DNA of 64,000 nt from a bacterium (GCA_028821455.1 JAPPGE010000023.1:1-64000), one strand, 5' to 3'. Positions 4,055 through 57,732 are shown, counted from the first letter of the stretch. Program-made: numbers and translations. The notes: generated from the letters alone by a model not told the origin.

Positions 4055-4441
4055 TCAGTCCAGGGGCTCCGGGGGGACGGGTACGTGGTGGTGGGTGCTG
4101 CTTCCCGCCTTCGACTCGGTCACCGGAGCCACGGCAAAGAAGAATCTCGCCGGTTCGCGCGCCACATAGGTGAGCCGGGTTCCGGCAGGAAGCCACATGA
4201 TGTCTCCGGGGCCAATGCGGTGCCGTCCCTCGTCGGTGTGGATCTCCAGTTCACCGTCGATTCCGTAGATGATCTCGTCGTAGGTCACGGTCCAGGGAAT
4301 GCTGCAGTTCTCGAACACTCCCATGCCGCCTCCCAGCGTGGTGCTGATCGCCGAGTTGATGGTTGCCACCACATTGCCGCCACTGCCGTCAGCCACGGAA
4401 AGATCGAGGTCATTCCCACGGAACATGCGTGCATCGCTCAT
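4055..4441 (-). CDS. Small cupin-domain protein (EutQ-like)
   Basis: This 128-residue protein forms a single cupin barrel. The conserved turns are visible as DEIIYGIDGELEIHTDEG and GPGDIMWLPAGTRL, resembling the EutQ-type ethanolamine utilisation cupins. These proteins are poorly defined biochemically. The His residues expected of metal-binding cupins are mostly replaced here by Asp, Glu and Tyr, as in EutQ. The start codon overlaps the stop of the upstream Rieske oxygenase by one base (TGATG), so it is translationally coupled to it. The context suggests a binding or isomerising role in the same catabolic operon, but the function is unproven. Confidence 0.8.
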   Translation of the reverse strand: MSDARMFRGNDLDLSVADGSGGNVVATINSAISTTLGGGMGVFENCSIPWTVTYDEIIYGIDGELEIHTDEGRHRIGPGDIMWLPAGTRLTYVAREPARFFFAVAPVTESKAGSSTHHHVPVPPEPLD

Positions 4442-5586
4442 CAGGTCATGTCTCCTTCCAATGCATCTTTCACCCAGGTCTGAAAGGCATGGACACAGTG
4501 TTCGCTGTCTCCGGGTTCACCGCCCCGGGAAATGAACCGGCCCTGGTAGTAGCCTCGCGACACGATACCCCGCTGGACACCTTCATTGAGGGCGGCATCT
4601 TCAGGTCCGAGAGCCTCGTTGAACCAGACCTCCGAAGCACGCGTGGTCTCGTCATCGCCACGGCCAGGAACGCGGTAGTAGGCGTTTTCCACGACTGATG
4701 ACTGCGTCCCCGTGGGCCGCATCAGGAAGGTCGAGATCATGTCGGCATGGGGCCAGGAATAGATGATCCAGTCCGGCCACAGGTAAAGCGTGATGAAATG
4801 GTCCGTCTGGCCACCGGAACCGGACCGCGGGAAGGGATAAACCTCCGTCCGGTTCCTGCCCGGGGGAGCAATGATGGCCAGCCAGCGGTCGTGCACATGA
4901 AGCTTAGTGGTCTCCATGTCGATGATGTCGGTGAGTTCGCGGTGGGCCGGGCCGGAGTTGGGAAAGTGGTAGCCCTCGATCGCGTTCTCGACGGTCACCT
5001 TCCAGTTGGAGGCAATGGCAAAGTCCTTCTGGCCGCCGAACGTGACCGTTTCGAGATCAGGAAACCAGCGCCGGCACTCTTCCTCGAAGCCCGGGGCCCA
5101 CTCGTTCATCGGCGGCGCATCGTCATCGAGGTTGACGAAGATGAAGCCGGCGAATTCCTGGATCCGCACCGGCACGAGACCGAAGTCGGACTTGTCGAAA
5201 TCCGGCACCCGGTCACACAGCCGTGCGCTCCTCAGTGACCCGTCGGTGCCATAGGCCCAGCCATGGTAGGGGCAGGTGATGGCGGCCTTGACGGTGCCGC
5301 GCCCCTGCAGCAGCTCGTGGGCACGGTGCTGGCAAACGTTGTAGAAGGCGCGCAGACGACCGTCCCGTCCCCTGATGGCGACAACTCCCTGACCGTGGAT
5401 GTCGACGGTGACATAGCTGCCGGGAGTGCCGAGCGCGCTCCTGTGACAGACAAAACGCCAGGAGCGGAAGAAGATCGCCTCCTTCTCACGCTCCAGAACA
5501 TCCTCACGGTAGTACCACGGCGAAGGCAGGGTGAACGAGGTGAGGTGGTCACCGGTCATCCCCGCCACCGGCAGCGATTCAACCAT
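4441..5586 (-). CDS. Rieske non-haem iron oxygenase, alpha subunit type (Rieske A)
   Basis: This is a lone oxygenase component of about 381 residues. The Rieske [2Fe-2S] ligands are Cys85-His87 (VCQHRAH) and Cys105-His108 (CPYHGW). The mononuclear iron site begins NAIEGYH, giving Glu204 and His207. The next His is at 215, so the two His are seven residues apart rather than the usual four, which marks a separate subfamily. The ATG at 5586 is preferred because GGAG precedes it; a TTG at 5607 is the alternative. No reductase or ferredoxin gene lies nearby. It sits between the formamidase and the cupin. Related lone alpha subunits hydroxylate or demethylate quaternary amines, but the substrate here cannot be read from sequence. 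Confidence 0.88.
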   Translation of the reverse strand: MVESLPVAGMTGDHLTSFTLPSPWYYREDVLEREKEAIFFRSWRFVCHRSALGTPGSYVTVDIHGQGVVAIRGRDGRLRAFYNVCQHRAHELLQGRGTVKAAITCPYHGWAYGTDGSLRSARLCDRVPDFDKSDFGLVPVRIQEFAGFIFVNLDDDAPPMNEWAPGFEEECRRWFPDLETVTFGGQKDFAIASNWKVTVENAIEGYHFPNSGPAHRELTDIIDMETTKLHVHDRWLAIIAPPGRNRTEVYPFPRSGSGGQTDHFITLYLWPDWIIYSWPHADMISTFLMRPTGTQSSVVENAYYRVPGRGDDETTRASEVWFNEALGPEDAALNEGVQRGIVSRGYYQGRFISRGGEPGDSEHCVHAFQTWVKDALEGDMT

Positions 5587-5651
5587 GACGCAGCTCCGTT
5601 GTTCCAACGCCGGGAACCCTATGCGTCACCCCGTCCCGAATCAACGTTCCC

Positions 5652-5672
5652 GGGCCGCCCTGGTGGCGGCCC
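5652..5672 (-). terminator. GC-rich hairpin just downstream of the formamidase gene
   Basis: An 8-bp perfect stem (GGGCCGCC paired with GGCGGCCC) with a 5-base loop begins about 5 nt after the formamidase stop codon. No T-run follows, so it is more likely a pause site, mRNA stabiliser or weak terminator than a classical intrinsic terminator. Confidence 0.4.
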
Positions 5673-5677
5673 CTGTT

Positions 5678-6694
5678 TCAGTCCTGGATGTACTTCTTGG
5701 GAACGGCGGCGCCAATCGTGTACTTGGGATCCACGAAATTGCCCAGGCGCACCTTGCCGCACTGACTGAGCATCATGTAGGCGTCCCACTGGTCGAACCC
5801 GTAGTCCGCCGCCATCCACCGGATCAGTTCACGGTAGGCAATGCGTGCGCTGTCCTCGAGCGGACGCGTGCTGCCTATTCCCATGATGAAGTCATCGGCC
5901 TCCAGGCGCGGCCACTCGATCGGCCAGTTCTTGATCAGATCGACCGTTATGGTGGTGGTGGTCGGGTACTCGACGGCCACGCCGCATACTTCGCCATCGC
6001 CCTGGCAGGCATGGGCATCGCCGATGAAGAGACGGCCACCCCTGGTGCGGACTGGCAGGTAGGTGATCGTACCCGGTCCCATGTCGGGGAGATCCATGTT
6101 GCCGCCATGGGCGTCGGGTGTCAGGGAATTGATTGAATCGATCTCGGGCGAACAGCTGAGCGTGCCGATATGGGGCTTGTAGGGGAGCGTCACCCTGTCG
6201 CTCCAGTAGACCTTCTCCTCGTCGAGGTCGATCTTGCGAACGATCTCGGGGAGCGGTTCGTTGAGCGTCGCTGTCAGGGTTGTGCCGGTCAAGGCGCCGA
6301 ACTCCCGGATCATGCAACAGGTGCCGCGGGGGTTCGGTCCCCGTGGCGCCATGCTCTCGATATGAACGCACAGGACGTCGCCCTTTTCCGCTCCCTCGAC
6401 CATGATCGGGCCGCATTGGGGATTGAGCCAGGGCATCTCCAGAATTTCCGAGGGAACATCGGATTCGCTCCTGATCTTGCCTTCGAAGGCATCGCGAGTC
6501 TCGACGATGACCCTGTCACCCGGATTGATGTGGAGGACCGGTTCGGAATATGGGCCAATCGTGTAGTGATAGACACCCTGGACCTCTTCCGTGAGATTGT
6601 GGGTGACCCCTGTTGATCCGTAGCCGACACCGCGCCGGTACATGATGGATTCCGTCACCCAGTCGTTCGGGTAGGATCGCATGATCATTTCCAT
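5678..6694 (-). CDS. fmdA: Acetamidase/formamidase (FmdA/AmdA family)
   Basis: This 338-residue cytosolic amidohydrolase probably releases ammonia from formamide, acetamide or a related short amide. The family signatures are present: an N-terminal beta-domain with LHINPGDRVIVETRDAFEG, a GPIMVEGAEKGDVLCVHI segment and a C-terminal GDAHACQGDGEVCG motif, which carries the Asp, His and Glu residues characteristic of the family. The length matches other family members. The preferred ATG has AAGGGGG about 12 bases upstream. It lies directly downstream of an ABC transporter of the urea/short-chain amide class, the same arrangement known for fmd genes in methylotrophs. That strongly suggests uptake and hydrolysis of amides as a nitrogen source. 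Confidence 0.9.
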   Translation of the reverse strand: MEMIMRSYPNDWVTESIMYRRGVGYGSTGVTHNLTEEVQGVYHYTIGPYSEPVLHINPGDRVIVETRDAFEGKIRSESDVPSEILEMPWLNPQCGPIMVEGAEKGDVLCVHIESMAPRGPNPRGTCCMIREFGALTGTTLTATLNEPLPEIVRKIDLDEEKVYWSDRVTLPYKPHIGTLSCSPEIDSINSLTPDAHGGNMDLPDMGPGTITYLPVRTRGGRLFIGDAHACQGDGEVCGVAVEYPTTTTITVDLIKNWPIEWPRLEADDFIMGIGSTRPLEDSARIAYRELIRWMAADYGFDQWDAYMMLSQCGKVRLGNFVDPKYTIGAAVPKKYIQD

Positions 6695-11933: not shown

Positions 11934-13100
11934 TCACAACATGGAGCGTGCGACCCAGCGGTGGAAGCAGTGCGAGGGTCCTTCAAGGACGGGCGTGAAG
12001 ACACCACCTGAAAATCCCGGCGAGGCGCGCCCCTCCTGCATGCCCTGGACGGCATCCACGTCTTCCTGGAACACCTCGCGCCAGGTCTCGCGGACCGTCG
12101 CCCTCAGGTCGGCGCGACCGGGGCCGGCGGCATCCGTGCCGACGTAGTAGACATCGAAGATCTCGCGGCAGCGTCCCGGCCCGTCGGGCAGCACGCGGAC
12201 CGCCCAGAAGTGGTCGTAGTGAACACCGAGCATGACGTTGGGATAGAGCGCCACGTACTCGGCGCGGGTCTGCCAGGGCTCGGGCAGGCCCGGAAAACGC
12301 GACAGCTGATGACCGTTGCGGTCGGGCTGGTAGACGAGGCTCACCTGCCCCGAAAAGGTCTCCTCCTCGATGTTGAGGTGATCCTCGAGGCGTGAATAGG
12401 AACTGAGTCCGGGGTGCACCATGGGCAGATGGTAGGCCTCGCAGAAATTCTCGATGGCCAGCTTCCAGTTGGCCGCGAGATCGAACGTCATGATCGAGTC
12501 CTCTCCGCCATGGCGGAGCAGCGATTCATCGAAGCAGGACCAGCGTTCGGCGAGCGGCCGGATGAAGTCGGCAAAGTCAGCGGCATCGCCGGAGAGGTTG
12601 ACGAAGACCTGGTCGAACCACACCGCGCTCGGCACTTCGTTGAGGCGGAAGTGCTGCCGATCGAACCCTTCGCATTCGTGCCTGCCCGGTCCGCCGATGT
12701 GGGGCGTGAGACGCAGGCTGCCCTCGAGACCGAAGGTCCAGTTGTGGTAGGGGCAGGTGAGGACCACACCCGTCTTGCCGGACTTGCCAACCAGCCGCAT
12801 GCCCCGGTGTGGACAGACGTTGTGGAAGACGCGGACCTGGCTGTCATGGCCGCGCACCACGAAGAGCGGAACCCCGACGAGGTCCAGCGGCATGACATCA
12901 CCGGGTTCAGGCACGTAGGACGCGGCCACCAGGCACACCCAGTTGTGCGACCACAGGCGGACCCTCTCGCTCTCGAACCACGACTGCGACACGTAGGCCT
13001 CTGCGGGAAGCGGCCTTGCCGCTCCATAGTCGAGGGTCACGCTTTCGAGCGCCTGCGGGCTGAAGTCCCGTGCCGAAGGGAAGAATGCTGTCCCGGTCAT
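11934..13100 (-). CDS. Rieske non-haem iron oxygenase, alpha subunit type (Rieske B)
   Basis: This protein of about 388 residues has Rieske ligands Cys96-His98 (CPHRGM) and Cys116-His119 (CPYHNW). Its mononuclear iron site is canonical: NFCEAYHLPMVH gives Asn218, Glu221, His224 and His229. The ATG at 13100 is chosen because GGAGG lies 8 nt upstream; a TTG 15 nt earlier is weaker. It lies upstream of the amide transporter genes and downstream of a serine hydrolase in the same direction. Lone alpha subunits of this kind include glycine betaine and carnitine oxygenases, which borrow a reductase encoded elsewhere. The actual substrate is unknown. Confidence 0.88.
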   Translation of the reverse strand: MTGTAFFPSARDFSPQALESVTLDYGAARPLPAEAYVSQSWFESERVRLWSHNWVCLVAASYVPEPGDVMPLDLVGVPLFVVRGHDSQVRVFHNVCPHRGMRLVGKSGKTGVVLTCPYHNWTFGLEGSLRLTPHIGGPGRHECEGFDRQHFRLNEVPSAVWFDQVFVNLSGDAADFADFIRPLAERWSCFDESLLRHGGEDSIMTFDLAANWKLAIENFCEAYHLPMVHPGLSSYSRLEDHLNIEEETFSGQVSLVYQPDRNGHQLSRFPGLPEPWQTRAEYVALYPNVMLGVHYDHFWAVRVLPDGPGRCREIFDVYYVGTDAAGPGRADLRATVRETWREVFQEDVDAVQGMQEGRASPGFSGGVFTPVLEGPSHCFHRWVARSML

Positions 13101-13143
13101 GAGGCGGTCCTCCAAAGGCGTCGCGATCCTATCAATCCGGTTG

Positions 13144-14361
13144 TCACGCTGTCAGCGCCTGATTGACCAGCACCCTGAGCTGCTTGCGAATGGGATAGCA
13201 TCCCGAGGGGATGAGCTGGGTCATGAACACCACAGCCATGTCCTCTAGCGGGTCAACCCAGAACGCGGTCGACGCCATGCCGCCCCAGGCGAATTCACCC
13301 GGTGAGGCCATGACCCCCGCGGCGGCCGGATCGAGCATCACCGACACACCCAGTCCGAACCCGACACCGACGTAGCTCGTTTCGGCAAAGACCTCCTGCC
13401 CCATGGCCGCAAGGTCGCTGTCGTCGGGAAGATGATTCGTCGCCATGAACTCGACGGTGCGCCGCCCCAGAATACCGCGTCCTCCCTCCCGGAGCATGTC
13501 GGCGAACTTGAGGTAGTCGTGCATGGTGGAAAGCAGACCGCCACCTCCCGAACAACAGGTGACCGCAGACGCATAACGGCTGTCGGCCGTGCCGTCGAAA
13601 CGCCGGAAGCGGTTGTCGGGGGTCTGCTCGTAGCATGGCACGAAGCGGTCGACACGATCCTTCGGAAGCCCGAAGAAGGTGTCGGTCATGCCCAAAGGCT
13701 CGAAGATCTCCTCGGCAAGGTAACGATCGAACGGCCTGCCCGAGATGACCTCCACGAGGTAGCCCAGGACATCGATGGAAACACCGTAGGTCCACCGTGC
13801 TCCCGGGTGATGATCGAGCGGCAGATCGCCGAGGCGGGTGACGACCTCATCGAGCGTCCCGGCCCGGGGCCCGAAGTCGGCCCGATTTTCCCGATAGAGT
13901 TTCGCCAGTTCGTCGTTGCCGTTGAAACTGTAGGTGAACCCGGACGTGTGACAGAACAGATCACGGATGGTGATCGGCCGGCTGGCGGGTTCGAGATGCA
14001 TGCCGTAGGGGGTCTCGCCGACCCGCACGGACATGTCGGCCAGTTGCGGGATGTATGCTTCGACCGGATCCTCGAGCCCGAAGAGGCCCTGTTCATAGAG
14101 CGTGAGGGCGGCCACCGCGGTCACCGGCTTGGACATCGAGTAGATGCGGCAGATGGCATCGGGAAAGATGGCCCGTCCGGCCTCCACGTCCGCAAGACCG
14201 GCAGCCTCCCGGTAGACGAGGAGACCTTCACGGACGATTGCGGTCATGGCCCAGGGAAGCTTGCCCTCGTCGACATAGCGCTTCATCCAGTCACCGATAC
14301 GTTCAAGTCTCATGGACGAAAGACCCGCCGTCTCCGGTTCGGACCTGTGGATGTCGGTCAT
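13144..14361 (-). CDS. Serine hydrolase of the beta-lactamase/EstB family
   Basis: This 405-residue protein has the class C beta-lactamase fold. The SxxK nucleophile motif is visible as SMSKP, about a quarter into the protein, with a YGVS motif (the usual YxN) around WTYGVSIDVLGYLVE and a GWGG-like C-terminal FAWGGMAST. There is no signal peptide, so it probably acts in the cytoplasm as an esterase or amidase rather than in antibiotic resistance. It lies between the small prfC-linked gene and Rieske B with short gaps (21 and 43 bp), so it may share their transcript. It could de-esterify or de-acylate the compound handled by the neighbouring oxygenase. Confidence 0.85.
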   Translation of the reverse strand: MTDIHRSEPETAGLSSMRLERIGDWMKRYVDEGKLPWAMTAIVREGLLVYREAAGLADVEAGRAIFPDAICRIYSMSKPVTAVAALTLYEQGLFGLEDPVEAYIPQLADMSVRVGETPYGMHLEPASRPITIRDLFCHTSGFTYSFNGNDELAKLYRENRADFGPRAGTLDEVVTRLGDLPLDHHPGARWTYGVSIDVLGYLVEVISGRPFDRYLAEEIFEPLGMTDTFFGLPKDRVDRFVPCYEQTPDNRFRRFDGTADSRYASAVTCCSGGGGLLSTMHDYLKFADMLREGGRGILGRRTVEFMATNHLPDDSDLAAMGQEVFAETSYVGVGFGLGVSVMLDPAAAGVMASPGEFAWGGMASTAFWVDPLEDMAVVFMTQLIPSGCYPIRKQLRVLVNQALTA

Positions 14362-48029: not shown

Positions 48030-48260
48030 CAGGCAGCAGATGATGCAAATGCCGCGAAAGTGCTGGCCCGGCGCCCTTGATGCCGGTTCGATGCAGGCGC
48101 GGTCCGTCACCCGCGGCCGGACCTTGCAGACATCCTCGAGGCTGCCGCCCGTTTCCGCGAGCGGTATCCCGAGATTCTTCATCGCCTGTCCGGTCTGGAA
48201 GGCGACGTCGCCTGCACCATGGAACGTGGAACGTGCCAGCAAGGCCGTGCGCGATCAGGA
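48030..48260 (-). pseudogene. Broken RidA-family gene copy
   Basis: The minus strand encodes TFHGAGDVAFQTGQAMKNL, then GGSLEDVCKVR and PGQHFRGI. These match the intact RidA gene at 50026-50448 (GTFHGPGDVARQTGQAMKNL and others). A 7-base duplication (ACGTTCC twice, near 48220-48235) shifts the frame upstream, and the 3' end diverges around 48040. It is a decayed paralogue. The exact ends are approximate. Confidence 0.8.
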
Positions 48261-50025: not shown

Positions 50026-50448
50026 TCAGCGTTCCCGGTCCTGCAGCACGGCCCAGACGTCGATTTCCATGTCGAGCCAGGGGCGGGCAAAGGCACTGAT
50101 GACGGCCGTATCGAGGATGATGGGGATGCCGCGGAAGTGCTCGCCAAGCACCCTTGATGCCGGCGCGATGAAGGCGCGGTCCCTCACCCACAGCCGGACC
50201 TTGCAGACGTCATCCAGGCTGCCGCCCGCTTCCGCGAGCAGAGTCTTGAGGTTCTTCATCGCCTGCCCGGTCTGGCGGGCGACGTCGCCTGGACCATGGA
50301 ACGTGCCGTCAAGATCGTGCCCGGTCTGGCCGCGTATCGCCAGCCAGCGACCGGCCCGCACCACCATGGCAAGGCGCGATCCAAGCTTCTGCTGACCGCG
50401 GTACCACTGGTCGGTGTCGAAGACCCGGAAGCGTTCGTGTGCCGTCAT
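50026..50448 (-). CDS. RidA-family protein
   Basis: This 140-residue protein belongs to the RidA/YjgF/UK114 family. Relatives deaminate reactive enamine/imine intermediates. The visible family parts are RAGRWLAIRGQTGHDL and TFHGPGDVARQTGQAMKNLK, then GGSLDDVCKVRLWVRDRAF. The typical Arg (VRDRAF area) and the ligand pocket are present. It is the last gene of the MttB-Rieske operon, 14 nt after the dehydrogenase. It probably clears imines formed in the pathway. Confidence 0.85.
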   Translation of the reverse strand: MTAHERFRVFDTDQWYRGQQKLGSRLAMVVRAGRWLAIRGQTGHDLDGTFHGPGDVARQTGQAMKNLKTLLAEAGGSLDDVCKVRLWVRDRAFIAPASRVLGEHFRGIPIILDTAVISAFARPWLDMEIDVWAVLQDRER

Positions 50449-50462
50449 GACCCTGGCATTCG

Positions 50463-51452
50463 TCAATACCGGTGGAGGGTGCTGACCCGGTTGCGCAGCC
50501 GGGCGCCGCGAAGCCGGCGGGAGAGGTTGTCGAAGAAGAGATCCAGCGTGTCGGGAATGTATGTCCGGGCGTCGTCGGACGAGCAGTGGGGCGATATGAA
50601 GAGATCGGGGATCGTCCACAGGCGCGAGTCGGGCGGCAGCGGTTCGGGGTCGAAGACATCGAGATGGGCCGCTGCAAGATGCCCGCTCTCGAGGAGGTCG
50701 CCGAGCGCATCGACGTCGACGATCGCAGCCCGCCCCATGTTGAGGAGTGTCGCCCCCGGTTTCATCGACGAGAGTCGGCGGCGGTCCAGAAGATTGCGGG
50801 TTTCAGGCGTGAGCGGCGCCATCACGACGACGGTATCCGCCTCGCCCAGTACCGTGTCGATGGCATCGACGGCGACCACGCGATCGGCCCAGCGGAACGG
50901 CTGGCCTCGGCGCGTGACGCCGATCACCCTCATGGCGAGGCGCTGACGCAGCCAGCGCGCTGTCGGGCCCCCCATGCCGCCCAGGCCAATCACGACGGCC
51001 GTGCCGCCCTCGATCCGGGTGGTGAACCGTCGCGACCATCGGCGCCCGGCCTTGGCGTCGGCGAAGTGCGGCAGTCCGTGCGCCATGGCGAGCACCGATG
51101 CCGCGGCGAACTCCGCTGCCTTGGGCCCGTGGACGCCGCTGTTGTTGGTGATGGCGAGGCCCCGCCAGGTCCAGTCGAAGGGCTGCAGGTGTTCGGTTCC
51201 GGCTCCCGTGAGCGTGATCCACGTGAGCCTTGGCGCCATGGACTTCAGCTCGCGCATGGGAAACCGCCAGCCGATCAGGATGTCAGCGTCAGCCACGCCT
51301 TCGGCAAAGCGGTCGTGGTCCAGACTCCAGTCAAAGCGGACATGGCGTGCGAGGTGCGGATGGCGCGCCGCCGCGTCCGCCACCAATTCCTCGGTCACGT
51401 GGAAGACACGCGCCTGGGTGGAAAGGAAGCTGACGTGCACCTTCAGCGTCAT
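50463..51452 (-). CDS. D-isomer-specific 2-hydroxyacid dehydrogenase
   Basis: This enzyme of about 329 residues oxidises or reduces a 2-hydroxyacid with NAD(P). The Rossmann motif is VVIGLGGMGGPTARWLRQRL, and the catalytic Arg, Glu and His are implied by LLNMGRAAIVDVDAL, LDVFDPEPLP and ISPHCSSDD. The ATG at 51452 overlaps the Rieske C stop by 4 bp. It follows an oxygenase in an apparent catabolic operon, so a hydroxylated acid intermediate is plausible. Confidence 0.9.
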   Translation of the reverse strand: MTLKVHVSFLSTQARVFHVTEELVADAAARHPHLARHVRFDWSLDHDRFAEGVADADILIGWRFPMRELKSMAPRLTWITLTGAGTEHLQPFDWTWRGLAITNNSGVHGPKAAEFAAASVLAMAHGLPHFADAKAGRRWSRRFTTRIEGGTAVVIGLGGMGGPTARWLRQRLAMRVIGVTRRGQPFRWADRVVAVDAIDTVLGEADTVVVMAPLTPETRNLLDRRRLSSMKPGATLLNMGRAAIVDVDALGDLLESGHLAAAHLDVFDPEPLPPDSRLWTIPDLFISPHCSSDDARTYIPDTLDLFFDNLSRRLRGARLRNRVSTLHRY

Positions 51453-52585
51453 GGATCGAGCACACGGTCGAGGACCCAGTTGTCGATGGCGTGGACCAGG
51501 GGTTCGAGGTGGCTGAACCTGCCCGGTGCGACAAAGGGCGAACCAAGGCCGATCTGCTGGAGATTGGAGACGTCGTTGTCCTCGACGATCGACTGATTCC
51601 AGCGTTCGTAGTAGTTGGGCGCCAGTTCGGCGAAGTCGCCTCGCCGTGCGGTCGACTCGGGAAAGCAGGATCCGACGATCAGCCGTGTCTTCCCGGCAGA
51701 GAGCGGATGGAGTTCGAGCCACCACATGCAGTCGTAGGTCAGACCGAACATGGTCGAGGGATAGAGAAGGATGTAGTGGGTGCCCTCGGCCGAACGGCCC
51801 TCGAGGGTGGGGATATGGGGAAAACCCTTCATGCCCTCGAGCAGGGCGCGGCTCCCCTTGTGGCGCGTGAACAGGCCGCAGTACTGGCCATGGGCCGGAA
51901 TCGGCGGATTGTGATCGCGTTTCTGTTTCTGGATGGTCTGTTGGTGAACGGTGGGTACATGGTAGCTCTCCATCGCGTTCTCGACGTAGACCTTCCAGTT
52001 GCAGTCGAGGTCATAAGTGACGCGCCTCGTCGTCACCATGGCGTCGAGATCGTAAGGGGCGAGGATCTGCGGCAGGTCGCCGAGCCAGGACTCCAGTGGT
52101 TCGGCCTCGGAATCGAAGTTCAGGAACATGAAGCCGGCCCAGATCTCCAGGTTGAGTTCGATGAGACCGAAATCCTTGCGGTCGAATCCGGCCGTCTCGT
52201 CCATGTCCATGGCGCCGATGAGACGTCCGTCGTCGACGGCATAGGTCCATGCATGGTAGGGGCAGGAAAAGGTGTGGCACCGGCCCTCGCCCGACACCAC
52301 CCGGGCGCCGCGGTGACGACAGGTGTTGGCGAAGGCGCGGACCCGTGAATCCCGGCCGCGGACGATGACGACGGGAACGCCGACGAAGTCGAGTGAAAAA
52401 TAGCAGCCCGGCTCCGGCACACGGTCCTCCCGGCCGATGAAGTTCCAGCACTTCATGAAAATCGTCTTCACCTCGCGGCGGAAGAAGTCCTCGGAGGTGT
52501 AGCACTCCCCGGGGAGTGTCTCGGCCTCCAGCAGGGGCCGCCTGGTGGCCTCGTAGCGATGCGGGTCGAACAGGTTGTCGTTCAT
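51449..52585 (-). CDS. Rieske non-haem iron oxygenase, alpha subunit type (Rieske C)
   Basis: This 378-residue protein has Rieske ligands Cys89-His91 (TCRHRGA) and Cys108-His111 (CPYHAW). The mononuclear site NAMESYHVPTVH gives Asn203, Glu206, His209 and His214. It overlaps both the MttB-family gene (4 bp) and the dehydrogenase (4 bp), so it is tightly co-translated with them. Lone Rieske oxygenases of this type demethylate quaternary ammonium compounds such as glycine betaine. The MttB neighbour supports an N-methylated substrate. The reductase is not encoded nearby. Confidence 0.9.
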   Translation of the reverse strand: MNDNLFDPHRYEATRRPLLEAETLPGECYTSEDFFRREVKTIFMKCWNFIGREDRVPEPGCYFSLDFVGVPVVIVRGRDSRVRAFANTCRHRGARVVSGEGRCHTFSCPYHAWTYAVDDGRLIGAMDMDETAGFDRKDFGLIELNLEIWAGFMFLNFDSEAEPLESWLGDLPQILAPYDLDAMVTTRRVTYDLDCNWKVYVENAMESYHVPTVHQQTIQKQKRDHNPPIPAHGQYCGLFTRHKGSRALLEGMKGFPHIPTLEGRSAEGTHYILLYPSTMFGLTYDCMWWLELHPLSAGKTRLIVGSCFPESTARRGDFAELAPNYYERWNQSIVEDNDVSNLQQIGLGSPFVAPGRFSHLEPLVHAIDNWVLDRVLDP

Positions 52586-54096
52586 GGTGCCTCCTCTTCC
52601 TTGCGCCGACGAACGAATGCCTCGAGTTCCTCGGCGCGCGCAGGATCGAGCGGCGGCGCCTCGAAGCGCCGCAACAGTTCCTTCCAGATCCGGTTGGCCC
52701 GGCAGGTGGCGTTCCTGGCGCCGTCCTCTTGCCAGGTTTCGAAATTGCGCCAGTCGGACAGCATGGGCTGGTAGAACGCGGTGTCATAGTGGCGAAGGGT
52801 ATGGCGCGCGCCAAAGAAGTGCCCGCCGGGCTGAACTTCGGCAATGGCATCGAAAGCGAGAGTCTCGTCATCGACGACGAGGGGCTGGAGAAACTCGCCG
52901 ATCATCTGCAGCATCTCGGCATCGAGTACCGCCTTTTCGAAGCTGGCCGTCAGACCGCCCTCCAGCCAGCCGGCGCCATGATGGAGGAGGTTGGCGTGGC
53001 CCAGCACGGCGCCCCAGATCGACATCTGGGATTCGTAGGCCGCCTGGGCATCGACCGCATTCGAGGCGTTGGTGTTGCTCGACCGGTAGGGGAGATTGTA
53101 ACGGCGGGCCAGCTGACCGCTCACGAGCGTGGCCCTGGTGTACTCCGGTGTTCCGAATGCCGGTGCGCCTGTCCTCATGTCGACATTGCTGGTGAAGCTG
53201 CCGTAGAAGACCGGTGCTCCGGGAGCGACGGCCTGGGCAAAGGCGATGCCCGCCAGTGCTTCGGCATTCTGCTGGACCAGCGAACCCGGAAGGGTGGCGG
53301 GGCTCATGGCGCCGGCAAGCGTAAACGGTGTCAGGGAAACCGCCTGGCCGTTGGTTGCGGCCTCGATCAGCCCTTCGAGCATGGGGCCGTCGATGCGCCG
53401 CGGCGAATTGACATTGATCGTGGTGAAGAATCCGGGTTTCCGGCGCACCTCCTCCCGCGAGACCCCCCGCACGATGGCGAGCATGTCGACGGCATCGCTC
53501 ACCCGCTTGCGGCCGAGGCCCGTGGCATGCCAGACCTTGTCGGAGAGCGTCAGGATCGCCTGAATGCAGTCGAGGTGGCGTGTTTCGGCGTCCAGGTCGA
53601 TCGGCGCAATCGGGACGCCGCCGCACAGGTGCAGGACGTCGAGACTTTGCATGAGCCGGATGTAGTTCCGGAAGTCCGCGAAGTTCCCCTGCCGGCGACC
53701 GCCGTCAAGGTCGCTGGCGTTCGCCGGACCGCCCACCGAATTGAAGGCGATGTGGTTGCCGCCGAACGTGACGGCGCGCTCCGGGTTGCGCGGGTGGATC
53801 GTGAATTCCGCCGGGGCCCGTGACACCAGTTCCATGACCAGCGCCCGGTCGAAACGCACGCATTGACCTGTCACCTCGGCGCCGGCCGCCCTCAAGTGTT
53901 CGAGGGCCTCGTCGAGCAGGAATTCGATTCCTAGTTCCTCGAGAACGCGCAACGACGTGTCATGAATGGATTCGAGATGGTCGGCGGAGAGGATTCCGAG
54001 TGGTGGATAGGGATTCCGGAGACGCCGCCAAGGCGTCTGCGGCACGAGGTCGCCTGCGGGGCGTCGTGCCCGTCTCTTCGCGTCCCGACGTCTCAC
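52582..54096 (-). CDS. Trimethylamine methyltransferase (MttB) family protein
   Basis: This protein of about 504 residues belongs to the non-pyrrolysine MttB family, whose bacterial members demethylate glycine betaine, carnitine and similar amines through a corrinoid protein. The family parts PWRRLRNPYPPLGILSADH and RVLEELGIEFLLDEAL are present, and no in-frame amber codon is seen, so no pyrrolysine is used. The GTG at 54096 is preferred because GGGAGAG lies just upstream. No corrinoid protein gene is found near it. Co-occurrence with an oxygenase is unusual, as MttB chemistry is typical of anaerobic metabolism. Confidence 0.88.
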   Translation of the reverse strand: MRRRDAKRRARRPAGDLVPQTPWRRLRNPYPPLGILSADHLESIHDTSLRVLEELGIEFLLDEALEHLRAAGAEVTGQCVRFDRALVMELVSRAPAEFTIHPRNPERAVTFGGNHIAFNSVGGPANASDLDGGRRQGNFADFRNYIRLMQSLDVLHLCGGVPIAPIDLDAETRHLDCIQAILTLSDKVWHATGLGRKRVSDAVDMLAIVRGVSREEVRRKPGFFTTINVNSPRRIDGPMLEGLIEAATNGQAVSLTPFTLAGAMSPATLPGSLVQQNAEALAGIAFAQAVAPGAPVFYGSFTSNVDMRTGAPAFGTPEYTRATLVSGQLARRYNLPYRSSNTNASNAVDAQAAYESQMSIWGAVLGHANLLHHGAGWLEGGLTASFEKAVLDAEMLQMIGEFLQPLVVDDETLAFDAIAEVQPGGHFFGARHTLRHYDTAFYQPMLSDWRNFETWQEDGARNATCRANRIWKELLRRFEAPPLDPARAEELEAFVRRRKEEEAP

Positions 54097-54184
54097 GGCA
54101 CTCTCCCGAACCGGCGGACGACGGGCTCCGCAGCCGGGCGGAGAACCCGGCGAGCCCCGGTTATCGCGACGAAACGGCCTGCCA

Positions 54185-56197
54185 TCACATGTGGTCCCGT
54201 GGAACGGACTCGTTCCACCGGCGCACCAGAACACGCCTGTCATGCTCGAACGCTTCGAGCGTGGCGGCGATGTGAAAGCTCTCGGAGTCGCAGGTGACGA
54301 CAATCCGCGTGTCGGTAGAGGGCTGCCAGTCGCCACGTTCCGCCCTGGCGATGCGGACCATGTCGGTGCGGGCACTCGAGGGGTCGCCCTCGCGGATGCC
54401 GAAGGTCTCTTCGGACCTCTTCGACACCACGAGACCGATGTCATCGAGGCGGACCCGGCCGCTGTCGTCGATGCGGTGAAGCTGCACCTCGTCCAGACCC
54501 AGGTCCCTCGTGACCGTCAGGCGCGCATCTCCCTCCTCGAGCACGGTCACCGGGTGATCTTCCGCGAACTCGGGCCCGGGGGGAGCCGTCGCAACCTTGG
54601 TCTCCTGGATCACCGGCAGCTGAAGCATGGATCCTGCGACATTGAGCGTCAGCGTGACCGTTTCCGGCGACGGCCAGGCCATGGGCCAGTAGCCGGTCGC
54701 GATGGCGAGGCGAATCCTGTTGCCCGGATGAAAGCGCCATGCCGTGTCGTTCAGTTTCACGACAACACGTTCACGTTCTCCGGGAATCATCGGCGCCGGC
54801 CATTCATGGGAGTGGCGGTGCGAAAGATTGAGAAGACCGAAACTCACCCGGACCGAGCGGCCTTCCGGCGTGACCTCGCAGAGCCGGACGGCAACCTGGG
54901 CCTGGGCACGGTCGCTGGCGAGATCGAGTGTCACCTCCGGAGCACCAAGGATGGCGAGGGGTTCGGCGAGAACCGCGCTGTCGAAAACGAGCGACAGCAT
55001 GTCGTCCACCGCCTGGTCCGACGCGAACTCCGGACCGAGGCCACCGCCGTCCCGGGGGCACCACTCGCCCCCGGCCAGACCGCCGGAAAGCAGTGTCGAG
55101 ACACGATGCGCCATGTCCCGGGACGGTTCGCCGTCGAGCGTCCCGTCGCCGGGAAAGAAGCACCGGGACGATGTCGCCGGCGGCCATGCGTCCACATTCA
55201 TCCAGTGACCGCCGATCACGGGGTGCATCGGGTGGGGAGTGGCCTCCTCCTGCATCCACACCGTGAGTGCCGGCTCATGATCGATACCGTTCTCCATGCC
55301 TTTCAGCCACCGGTCCCACCATCTCAAGGACTCCTGAAGAAAACCGACCGGCTCCCCGGGAAATCCGAAGTGAGGATAGACATGGGTCCAGGGTCCGATG
55401 AGGGCGCGCCGCGGCGCCTGGAGCCGTTCCATCATGCGCAGTGCCGCATTGGTATAACCGTCCGTCCAGCCGCCCACAACGAAGACCGCGGCCTCGATAG
55501 CGGCCGGATTCTCGCTGATCGAACCGTGTTTCCAGAAGGCGTCGCGGCGCTGGTGTCGGAACCAGTCGATCATCGGGCACCCCGTGGTCTCGAGGCGTTC
55601 CCGCCACATCTCCCGCCATGCTTCGCCGACGATGAGAGGATCCGGCCAGCGGGACAGGCACGAGAAGATGCCGCTCCCCCAGCTGATGCTGTCGTTGAGC
55701 AGGCAACCACCCATGTAGTGGACATCGTCACGGTACCTGTCGTCCGTGGAACAGCAGGTGATGATCGCCTTGAGCGATGGCGGGCGACGGGCGGCGATCT
55801 GGAGAGCGGCGAAGCCGCCCCAGGAAATGCCCACCATGCCGGTGGCGCCACTGCACCATGGCTGCCCGGCGATCCATGCCAGCGCCTCGCAGAGATCGTC
55901 CTGCTCGCACGCGAGATACTCGTCGAGAAGCACCCCATCGGAATCGCCGGAGCCGGCGAGGTCGAGACGGATGGAGGCATAGCCGTGACCCGCCCACCAG
56001 GGATGGGTCACCGCATCCTGAATGATGGTCCCGTCGAGCCGTCTGTAGGGAATCGCCTCGACGATGGCCGGCACCGGGTCATGGCCGCTGTCGACAGGCA
56101 GCCACATGCGCCCGGCAAGGCACCGCCCCCGCGATACCGGAATACGAAGATAGCGTTCCTCGCGAACCTCTCGCGGAAACTCCGTGCGAACCGTCAT
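54185..56197 (-). CDS. CocE/NonD-family hydrolase
   Basis: This 670-residue alpha/beta hydrolase is of the X-Pro dipeptidyl-peptidase/cocaine esterase type. The nucleophile motif is GISWGG with Ser125. The C-terminal beta-sandwich PepX domain (about 440-600) has NDTAWRFHPGNRIRLAIATG. There is no signal peptide. Relatives hydrolyse esters or acylated amino groups. It lies 88 bp upstream of the MttB gene and probably opens the same pathway by removing an acyl group. Confidence 0.87.
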   Translation of the reverse strand: MTVRTEFPREVREERYLRIPVSRGRCLAGRMWLPVDSGHDPVPAIVEAIPYRRLDGTIIQDAVTHPWWAGHGYASIRLDLAGSGDSDGVLLDEYLACEQDDLCEALAWIAGQPWCSGATGMVGISWGGFAALQIAARRPPSLKAIITCCSTDDRYRDDVHYMGGCLLNDSISWGSGIFSCLSRWPDPLIVGEAWREMWRERLETTGCPMIDWFRHQRRDAFWKHGSISENPAAIEAAVFVVGGWTDGYTNAALRMMERLQAPRRALIGPWTHVYPHFGFPGEPVGFLQESLRWWDRWLKGMENGIDHEPALTVWMQEEATPHPMHPVIGGHWMNVDAWPPATSSRCFFPGDGTLDGEPSRDMAHRVSTLLSGGLAGGEWCPRDGGGLGPEFASDQAVDDMLSLVFDSAVLAEPLAILGAPEVTLDLASDRAQAQVAVRLCEVTPEGRSVRVSFGLLNLSHRHSHEWPAPMIPGERERVVVKLNDTAWRFHPGNRIRLAIATGYWPMAWPSPETVTLTLNVAGSMLQLPVIQETKVATAPPGPEFAEDHPVTVLEEGDARLTVTRDLGLDEVQLHRIDDSGRVRLDDIGLVVSKRSEETFGIREGDPSSARTDMVRIARAERGDWQPSTDTRIVVTCDSESFHIAATLEAFEHDRRVLVRRWNESVPRDHM

Positions 56198-56301
56198 GCC
56201 GGGATGCTAGACCGCAAGGGCCGTCATTCCAATCGACCCCTTCCAAAACTGTCAGCGGTCCGCGGGATGGAGCCGGGGACCAGGCGTCGGCATTCCCCCA
56301 T

Positions 56302-57732
56302 TCAGAAGCCAAGTTCGGGCCGGCGTTCCGGGCAGTCCAGCCAGGGACGGCGTTCCTCCAGCGCATGGCCGATGCGGAACACCGAACTGTCGGCGAAGGG
56401 CCGGCCGACGATCTGGATGCCGGTCGGAAGGCCGTCAGCGGTCAGTCCCGACGGCACCGCAAGCACCGGCGAATGGCCGAACATGTTCCACAGCACGGTC
56501 ATGGCAGTCTGGGTGTCGGTGACATCCTTGCCATTGACGTTGATGGTGTCCTGCTGCCACGCCGTCGCCGGAAGGTGCGGGCAGGACACCGTGGGTGTGA
56601 TGAAGGCGTCATGGCGTTCGAAGATGGGTCCGAGATGGTCGTTCCAGACCTCGCCGGCGACTTCCAGCGAGCGACGGTAGTCGGCAGCCGTGAAGCGCCT
56701 GGTGGTTGCCACGAGTTCGGGCATGTAGTCGCTGACGATATCGCCATGTTTCTCGAGGGTTTCCGCGAACTCGTCGGCCGCCAGGAACTCCTGACCGCCG
56801 TGACCGAGGCGGATCGCCTCTTCGGCCCAGTCCACCGGCACCTCGGTGATGACCGCTCCTGCATCCTCGAGGGCAGCCAGGGCCTCTCGTGTCTGACGCT
56901 CCACGTCGGCGATGACCTCGTAGCAACCCAGATCGATCGAATAGGCGATCTTCATGCCGGCAATGCTGCCGGGGTCTACCGGCACCGTGATCCTGTCGGC
57001 AAGGCTGTTGTGGTCGAGGGGATGGGAACCCGACACGAGGTTTGCCATCAACGCCGCATCCCTCACAGAACGGGTCATGGGGCCATGGTGCAGGTACATG
57101 GCAAAACTGCTCCTGCCGGGCATGGGAATGCGCCCGAAAGGCGCCTGCCAGCCGACGATCCCGCACTGGCTTGCCGGTTGCCGGATCGAGCCCGTGCTGT
57201 CGCCGCCGGTGGCAAGGGTGGTGGCGCCGGCAGCCAGCGCGGCAGCCGAACCGCCGGAGGAGCCTCCAGGGGAGACGCCATGGCGCCATGGATTGTGGGT
57301 GACGCCCCACAGGCGTGAATGGGTTGTATAGAGCCATCCAAACTCGGGCATCGTTGTCCGGGCGAAGAGGATGGCGCCGGCTTCCAGAAGCCTCGCGATG
57401 TCGGGATCGGTCACCTCGTCGACGTGATCCCAGTAGACCATCGAGCCCCTTGCCGACCGTCTGCCGGCGATGCGCGAAGAATCCTTGACCGCCAGGGGGA
57501 TGCCGGCGAGCGGTCCGGGGTCCGCGCCACCGCCTGTGAAGGCCTGCTCGGCGTCCCTGGCCTTCCGGCGCGCTTCGTCGAAGTAACAGTCGCCGAAGGG
57601 ATTGATGCTGTCCGATATGGCCTCGGCCCGATCGATCAGGGCCTCCAGCAGGTCCACCGGCGACAGAGTCCTTTCTCTGAAGCGTCGCGCCGCCTCGTGG
57701 GCCGGCATGTAACCGAGATCATCGTCGTCCAT
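56302..57732 (-). CDS. Amidase-signature-family amidase
   Basis: This enzyme of about 476 residues has the Ser-cisSer-Lys triad: Lys83 in LAVKDSS, Ser158 in PGGSSGGS and Ser182 in GGDSTGSIR. The usual TDTGGSIR motif is altered to GDSTGSIR, which keeps the nucleophile. It is probably an amide hydrolase for a carboxamide. The ATG at 57732 is internal to a longer open frame but follows family length. It is the first gene of the minus-strand operon, divergent from the PLP enzyme. Confidence 0.9.
   Translation of the reverse strand: MDDDDLGYMPAHEAARRFRERTLSPVDLLEALIDRAEAISDSINPFGDCYFDEARRKARDAEQAFTGGGADPGPLAGIPLAVKDSSRIAGRRSARGSMVYWDHVDEVTDPDIARLLEAGAILFARTTMPEFGWLYTTHSRLWGVTHNPWRHGVSPGGSSGGSAAALAAGATTLATGGDSTGSIRQPASQCGIVGWQAPFGRIPMPGRSSFAMYLHHGPMTRSVRDAALMANLVSGSHPLDHNSLADRITVPVDPGSIAGMKIAYSIDLGCYEVIADVERQTREALAALEDAGAVITEVPVDWAEEAIRLGHGGQEFLAADEFAETLEKHGDIVSDYMPELVATTRRFTAADYRRSLEVAGEVWNDHLGPIFERHDAFITPTVSCPHLPATAWQQDTINVNGKDVTDTQTAMTVLWNMFGHSPVLAVPSGLTADGLPTGIQIVGRPFADSSVFRIGHALEERRPWLDCPERRPELGF

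Follow-up and report, generated by a model that had tools for sequence, protein, structure and literature searches.

Descriptions of demethylases normally assign the corrinoid-dependent kind to anaerobes and the oxygenase kind to aerobes, as alternatives to each other. Here we describe a run of genes, at positions 50026-57732 of a 64,000-nucleotide stretch of bacterial DNA (GCA_028821455.1, JAPPGE010000023.1:1-64000; this whole stretch is referred to as the window), in which the gene for a methyltransferase of the MttB superfamily overlaps the gene for a Rieske non-heme iron oxygenase. On the methyltransferase side, the closest described system is MtgBCD of the aerobic bacterium Ruegeria pomeroyi DSS-3, where genetics and proteomics established a layout in which a PF06253 gene is located away from the genes for one common corrinoid protein, a pterin-binding methyltransferase and DUF1638, with MtgC and MtgD serving both glycine-betaine demethylation and methionine synthesis (PMC12478193). 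The same study reported several PF06253 paralogs per genome, "up to seven" open reading frames, and took them as a sign of further methylated substrates (PMC12478193). The published aerobic system (PMC12478193) runs counter to the initial annotation of the window, which had treated MttB as an often anaerobic enzyme. On the oxygenase side, the nearest folds are those of the stachydrine demethylase Stc2 (3vca, 4qup) and the carnitine monooxygenase CntA (6y9c, 6y9d), for neither of which is an MttB partner reported in the literature searched. We think it fairly probable that the window's genes form a catabolic operon of an aerobic methylated-amine user, directed at one specific quaternary (betaine-like, N-methylated) compound.

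The families of the six genes were assigned by Pfam and NCBIfam profile matches, as follows.

50026-50448, minus strand: RidA (Rid/YjgF family; predicted imine/enamine hydrolase); PF01042, E = 1.5e-14
50463-51452, minus strand: D-2-hydroxyacid dehydrogenase; PF02826 (2-Hacid_dh_C), E = 1.7e-42
51449-52585, minus strand: Rieske non-heme iron oxygenase, alpha subunit only, quaternary-ammonium type; Rieske and Ring_hydroxyl_A domains
52582-54096, minus strand: non-pyrrolysine MttB-superfamily methyltransferase (MtgB-like), GTG start; PF06253, E = 5.9e-203
54185-56197, minus strand: CocE/NonD-type serine hydrolase (Peptidase_S15 and PepX_C); TIGR00976, 211.7 bits against a cut-off of 66.3
56302-57732, minus strand: amidase-signature hydrolase, loosely attached and not a conserved member; PF01425, E = 1.7e-79

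The initial description of six genes on a single strand, joined by two ATGA overlaps, agrees with the sequence: the coordinates and both 4-base overlaps (MttB stop with Rieske start, Rieske stop with dehydrogenase start) were checked there, and the families are strongly matched. The remaining gaps measure 14 bp between dehydrogenase and RidA, 88 bp between MttB and CocE, and 104 bp between CocE and the amidase, which is the loosest member because its gap is the largest.

Five of these genes form a conserved operon, in an arrangement that exceeds chance. Our sample of the order comprised 16 genomes, the window's own (G000) included, and genome annotation is incomplete beyond the fetched regions. 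Fourteen of them, spanning five genera, have a Rieske ortholog with 62-94% identity; the operon is missing from G008 and G013. CocE, MttB, Rieske, dehydrogenase and RidA occur together in all 14 operon genomes as far as contig ends allow (the operon of G002 is split over two contigs, the contigs of G010 and G011 end inside CocE, and that of G004 ends before it), with MttB identities of 61-96% across the co-localised loci and with RidA relocated upstream of CocE in G005 and G015. The six-gene order proposed initially thus stands for these five genes and not for the amidase: G006 is the sole relative in which it was confirmed next to the operon, and the loci fetched from more distant genomes do not contain it; the contigs of G010 and G011 stop before the amidase position. 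On these grounds we rejected a six-gene unit. Pairwise dN/dS ratios within the genus (against G006, G010 and G011, computed with our own Nei-Gojobori script) are 0.06-0.08 for MttB and the dehydrogenase, 0.08-0.10 for Rieske, 0.14-0.15 for RidA and about 0.18 for CocE, and the five genes are therefore under strong purifying selection. Sequence segments are invariant as well: the C-terminal AR....ME.D motif of RidA across the 14 loci, the NAD motif and catalytic Arg/Glu/His segments of the dehydrogenase (G.G.MG, GRA, DVF.PEP, PH.SSDD) in 14 orthologs, and the segments GISWGGF, GGW.DGY and GPWTH among the CocE orthologs.

The MttB protein covers positions 3-498 of the 500 in the PF06253 profile. 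Its frame is open throughout, with no amber codon, and the pyrrolysine at position 334 of M. barkeri MttB (PMC9842639; structure 7xcl) aligns with T342. An AF2 model (pLDDT 88) superimposes on 4yyc, 2qne and 9yce with Z scores of 57.8, 57.1 and 56.9, over 474-477 residues at an rmsd of 1.5-1.6. The operon protein thus has the whole-protein fold of MtgB from Desulfitobacterium hafniense (2qne, 9yce) and of S. meliloti 4yyc and, like them, no pyrrolysine; it differs in that identity is only about 38-39% and the pocket motifs are others. In a tree of 29 proteins the operon MttBs make up a clade of 13 (support 100/99), nested in a larger group with the paralogs C79a, C79b, C54 and C12, whereas 4yyc groups with another paralog of the window's genome, C65. 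The separate clade led us to reject identity with the glycine-betaine MtgB. In the pocket, the operon clade carries DKVWHATGL, as against DKPFMGSVT on the 4yyc side, and judging from this sequence difference the operon MttB likely acts on a different substrate.

That the operon encodes no corrinoid protein, as initially noted, is correct for its six genes and incorrect for the genome. The window's genome encodes 15 full-length PF06253 proteins and a single B12-binding_2 (corrinoid) protein at C24:16937-17641, which heads a cluster in the order B12-binding_2, DUF1638, Virulence_fact-domain protein, MTHFR, DUF5981 (MTHFR C-terminal), a second MTHFR and a pterin-binding methyltransferase. A RACo_C_ter protein, of the kind that usually reactivates the corrinoid, is encoded about 6 kb further downstream on the same contig. 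The genome thus has an MtgBCD-type set, with a reductive activator and a pterin methyltransferase besides the corrinoid protein. The best NCBIfam models for the corrinoid protein are two MtgC models, both scoring below their cut-offs (MtgC_2 is best, at 199 bits against 370), and each of the 16 genomes sampled from the order encodes this protein, at 79-98% identity. Fifteen MttB paralogs and one corrinoid protein are in line with the published model of one MtgC and many MtgB-like proteins (PMC12478193). Because the genome has this Ruegeria-type layout, the operon MttB needs no corrinoid gene nearby and does not imply anaerobic life. It departs from the Ruegeria system in lying outside the glycine-betaine clade, in being translationally coupled to a Rieske oxygenase and in having so many paralogs. 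The genome's methylated-amine enzymes are strongly expanded: besides the MttB and corrinoid proteins, there are 12 matches of the trimethylamine dehydrogenase (TMADH)/histamine-dehydrogenase type, a family with 3-15 matches per genome. The order accordingly looks specialised for methylated amines. Thirteen S-methyl_trans loci (PF02574, homocysteine/betaine methyltransferase type) were also counted in the window's genome, a seemingly high number.

The Rieske oxygenase retains its ligands (C89/H91/C108/H111, H209/H214 and D336) invariantly in 24 relatives, and E206 nearly so. When its AF2 model (pLDDT 92) was compared with solved structures, ranks 1 to 10 fell to Stc2, CntA and the uncharacterised 3n0q (Z 38.7-40.3); the next group, the aromatic dioxygenases, lies about 3 Z lower at 36.8, and the dicamba and guaiacol O-demethylases far below. 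The best solved sequence match is CntA, whose NMECYH aligns with AMESYH of the operon protein so that E206 falls on the CntA glutamate. These comparisons, which draw on a predicted fold, favour the quaternary-ammonium oxygenase group. The ligand pattern is common to Stc2, CntA and the operon protein, which differs from the first two in having just 26-28% identity with them and no adjacent reductase gene. Identity with GbcA was rejected (150 bits against the 670 required by the NCBIfam equivalog). MttB and Rieske both fall within groups active on quaternary N-methyl compounds, which supports this part of the initial proposal. Its further suggestion of an acylated substrate is weak, for it depends on the two hydrolases, one of them the amidase found beside the operon in a single relative.

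Beyond the order, we sampled 385 genomes across the class, one per species, drawn evenly and with limited flanks. Relatives of the Rieske oxygenase (about 40-62% identity) occur in other families, many of them paired with the like dehydrogenase type, and some loci also hold DUF1989 proteins, a polar amino-acid ABC transporter or a second Rieske copy. No MttB gene stands beside Rieske at the fetched out-of-order Rieske loci, nor is Rieske next to MttB at any of the best 26 out-of-order MttB loci (flanks of about 1.5 kb). L093 has a 28%-identical MttB about 7 kb from its Rieske gene and L107 a 59%-identical MttB fragment about 9 kb off, neither of them adjacent. The Rieske-dehydrogenase pair is thus the wider and probably the older association, and the union with MttB is, in this sample, specific to the order. 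At L038, the neighbours of a 37%-identical Rieske gene include RidA and a betaine ABC transporter of the ProV type, which we count in favour of a betaine-like substrate. At L252, Rieske lies among FAD-oxidoreductase and DHDPS-family genes, a set that in our own reading resembles hydroxyproline catabolism. Four loci (L033, L243, L244 and L245) have two tandem Rieske genes, one of them dehydrogenase-linked; most of these clusters include a polar amino-acid ABC transporter, and DUF1989 (urea-amidolyase-associated) proteins also occur in L033, L244 and L245.

Relatives within the order add genes to the operon. In seven genomes a 692-aa flavoenzyme lies between CocE and MttB; its best solved relatives are histamine dehydrogenase (6de6, E = 1e-215) and then trimethylamine dehydrogenase, placing it in the family of 6de6 and 1djn. 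In ten genomes an HpaB-type monooxygenase lies inside the operon. The window's operon has neither, and both families are encoded elsewhere in its genome. TMADH-type genes also lie near other MttB paralogs, by coordinates (G001:C89, G009:C369, G015:C74, G002:C147, G013:C11 and G003:C230).

From the gene content, its conservation, the families and folds of the products and the corrinoid module, all of which the analysis shows, we infer a set of reactions and their order, an aerobic way of life and the kind of substrate. CocE, and probably also the amidase in the window's close clade, would free an amine from an ester or amide. MttB would take one N-methyl group and load it onto the MtgC-like corrinoid protein, of which the genome has one shared copy outside the operon; a pterin-binding (MtgD-like) methyltransferase would pass the methyl to tetrahydrofolate, and the RACo-type protein would re-reduce the corrinoid. 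The Rieske oxygenase, served by a reductase from another locus, would then carry out an O2-dependent step on the carbon skeleton of the MttB substrate, most likely a further oxidative N-demethylation (or a C-N cleavage) with release of formaldehyde. RidA may hydrolyse the resulting imine or enamine, and the dehydrogenase may process a 2-oxo or 2-hydroxy acid. In most relatives, the histamine/trimethylamine-dehydrogenase-type flavoenzyme, the HpaB-type flavin monooxygenase, or both, would add oxidation steps. More tentatively, we propose that one quaternary amine could be attacked in an aerobe first by a Co(I)-corrinoid methyltransferase, which needs no O2, and then by a Rieske oxygenase, which does, the first methyl going straight to tetrahydrofolate and a later carbon leaving as formaldehyde, with a substrate new to both families.

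Several observations weigh against the proposed catabolic operon. No Rieske reductase was recognised in the operon or its neighbours, the rest of the genome not having been searched. The pocket motif of MttB, unlike that of the glycine-betaine clade, means that the substrate could be unusual. The second HpaB copy of the window's genome (C63, 65% identical) is grouped with RidA and a DUF1028 gene (L210, 6480-9046) and no MttB, repeating the HpaB-RidA pair of the relatives' operons. Finally, the gene neighbours indicate no single substrate class: Rieske-dehydrogenase pairs at other loci are accompanied by DUF1989, while agmatinase-like or RutB-like genes are found close to related Rieske genes.

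Three other assignments of roles within the operon deserve consideration, together with the view that it is no functional unit at all. The one that survives best, though we regard it as unlikely, makes the Rieske oxygenase a CntA-like C-N lyase, which would hydroxylate the carbon beside the quaternary nitrogen and free trimethylamine or dimethylamine; MttB would demethylate another intermediate, and the skeleton would reach the dehydrogenase as a 2-oxo or 2-hydroxy acid. The place of CntA among the nearest sequence and structure matches, with its aligned motif and glutamate, speaks for this, as do the expanded TMADH family and the fact that the dehydrogenase is Rieske's most widely conserved partner. 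Yet Stc2, a true N-demethylase, fits equally well (the two are tied at Z of about 40), and if MttB acted earlier, turning the quaternary amine into a tertiary one, the leaving group on which CntA relies would be gone.

It is slightly less likely still that MttB and Rieske are alternative, not consecutive, enzymes for one demethylation, the B12 route being used at low oxygen or whenever there is corrinoid to hand, and the oxygenase route under other conditions. Both enzymes fall in quaternary-amine demethylase groups, and out-of-order Rieske genes stand without MttB and sometimes beside a tandem second copy, so that MttB could have replaced one oxygenase. However, translational coupling through ATGA implies a roughly constant co-expression and no switch. 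Replacement of a tandem copy is left unsupported by the Rieske tree, which separates the operon clade from the dehydrogenase-linked B copies and resolves nothing finer.

That MttB has been recruited for a methyl donor outside its canonical range (for example S-methyl, O-methyl or N-methyl on a ring) seems to us improbable. The target of the operon would then be a guanidino or N-heterocyclic compound, and the roles of Rieske, HpaB and RidA would resemble those in a Rut-like ring opening. The separate MttB clade with its altered pocket motif would suit such a role, as would the HpaB-RidA grouping in relatives, a decarboxylase of the AruI type close to the G015 operon (and, by eye, to that of G005), agmatinase-like genes in G005 and L038, and a RutB-like hydrolase near the L039 Rieske gene. 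Against it, the conserved core does not include the guanidino genes, none of which occurs at the operon loci fetched from the window's genus, and the Rieske fold favours quaternary ammonium substrates. We therefore treat a guanidino substrate, at which the AruI-like or agmatinase-like neighbours (G005, G015, L038) and DUF1989 (L033, L244, L245) hint, as a lead only. The decarboxylase candidates are thiamine-diphosphate enzymes close to the operon at L155 2050-3663 (G015) and L154 9550-11166 (G005); the former scores 645.9 bits against a cut-off of 500 for 5-guanidino-2-oxopentanoate decarboxylase, and the latter was judged by eye.

A chance assembly of genes from unrelated pathways can be dismissed for the five core genes, and is highly improbable overall: gaps of 88-104 bp set off the amidase and CocE, and relatives have additional genes in between, but co-localisation in 14 of 16 genomes and five genera, at 61-96% MttB identity and despite insertions and the RidA shifts in G005 and G015, contradicts it, leaving room for chance only in the case of the amidase.

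Each kind of enzyme in the proposed catabolic operon is already known. Our search of the open-access literature, outside which most subscription journals lie, found no paper that places an MttB-family methyltransferase and a Rieske oxygenase in one operon, in agreement with the initial view that a joint route had not been described; the conserved pairing suggests an undescribed route for breaking down a methylated nitrogen compound. The same literature gave nothing usable on an ergothioneine/hercynine route or on the MtgB pocket. A conserved, translationally coupled pair would show corrinoid and oxygenase demethylases within a single pathway. It would also build on recent work in which aerobes were found to handle methylated nitrogen compounds through a shared MtgC core. 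The lineage is uncultured and apparently aerobic, and the operon offers a concrete, cloneable gene set for the discovery of a new substrate.

Other parts of the window hold relatives of the operon's genes. About 2 kb downstream of the operon, past a convergent MFS gene, a 190-bp remnant (48039-48228, minus strand) is 85% identical to the middle of the operon RidA gene and represents a truncated duplicate. Two more Rieske oxygenases are encoded at 4441-6694 and 11934-14361 (minus strand); one adjoins an acetamidase/formamidase-family gene and the other a beta-lactamase-family serine hydrolase, and between the two lies an apparent branched-chain-type ABC transporter set.

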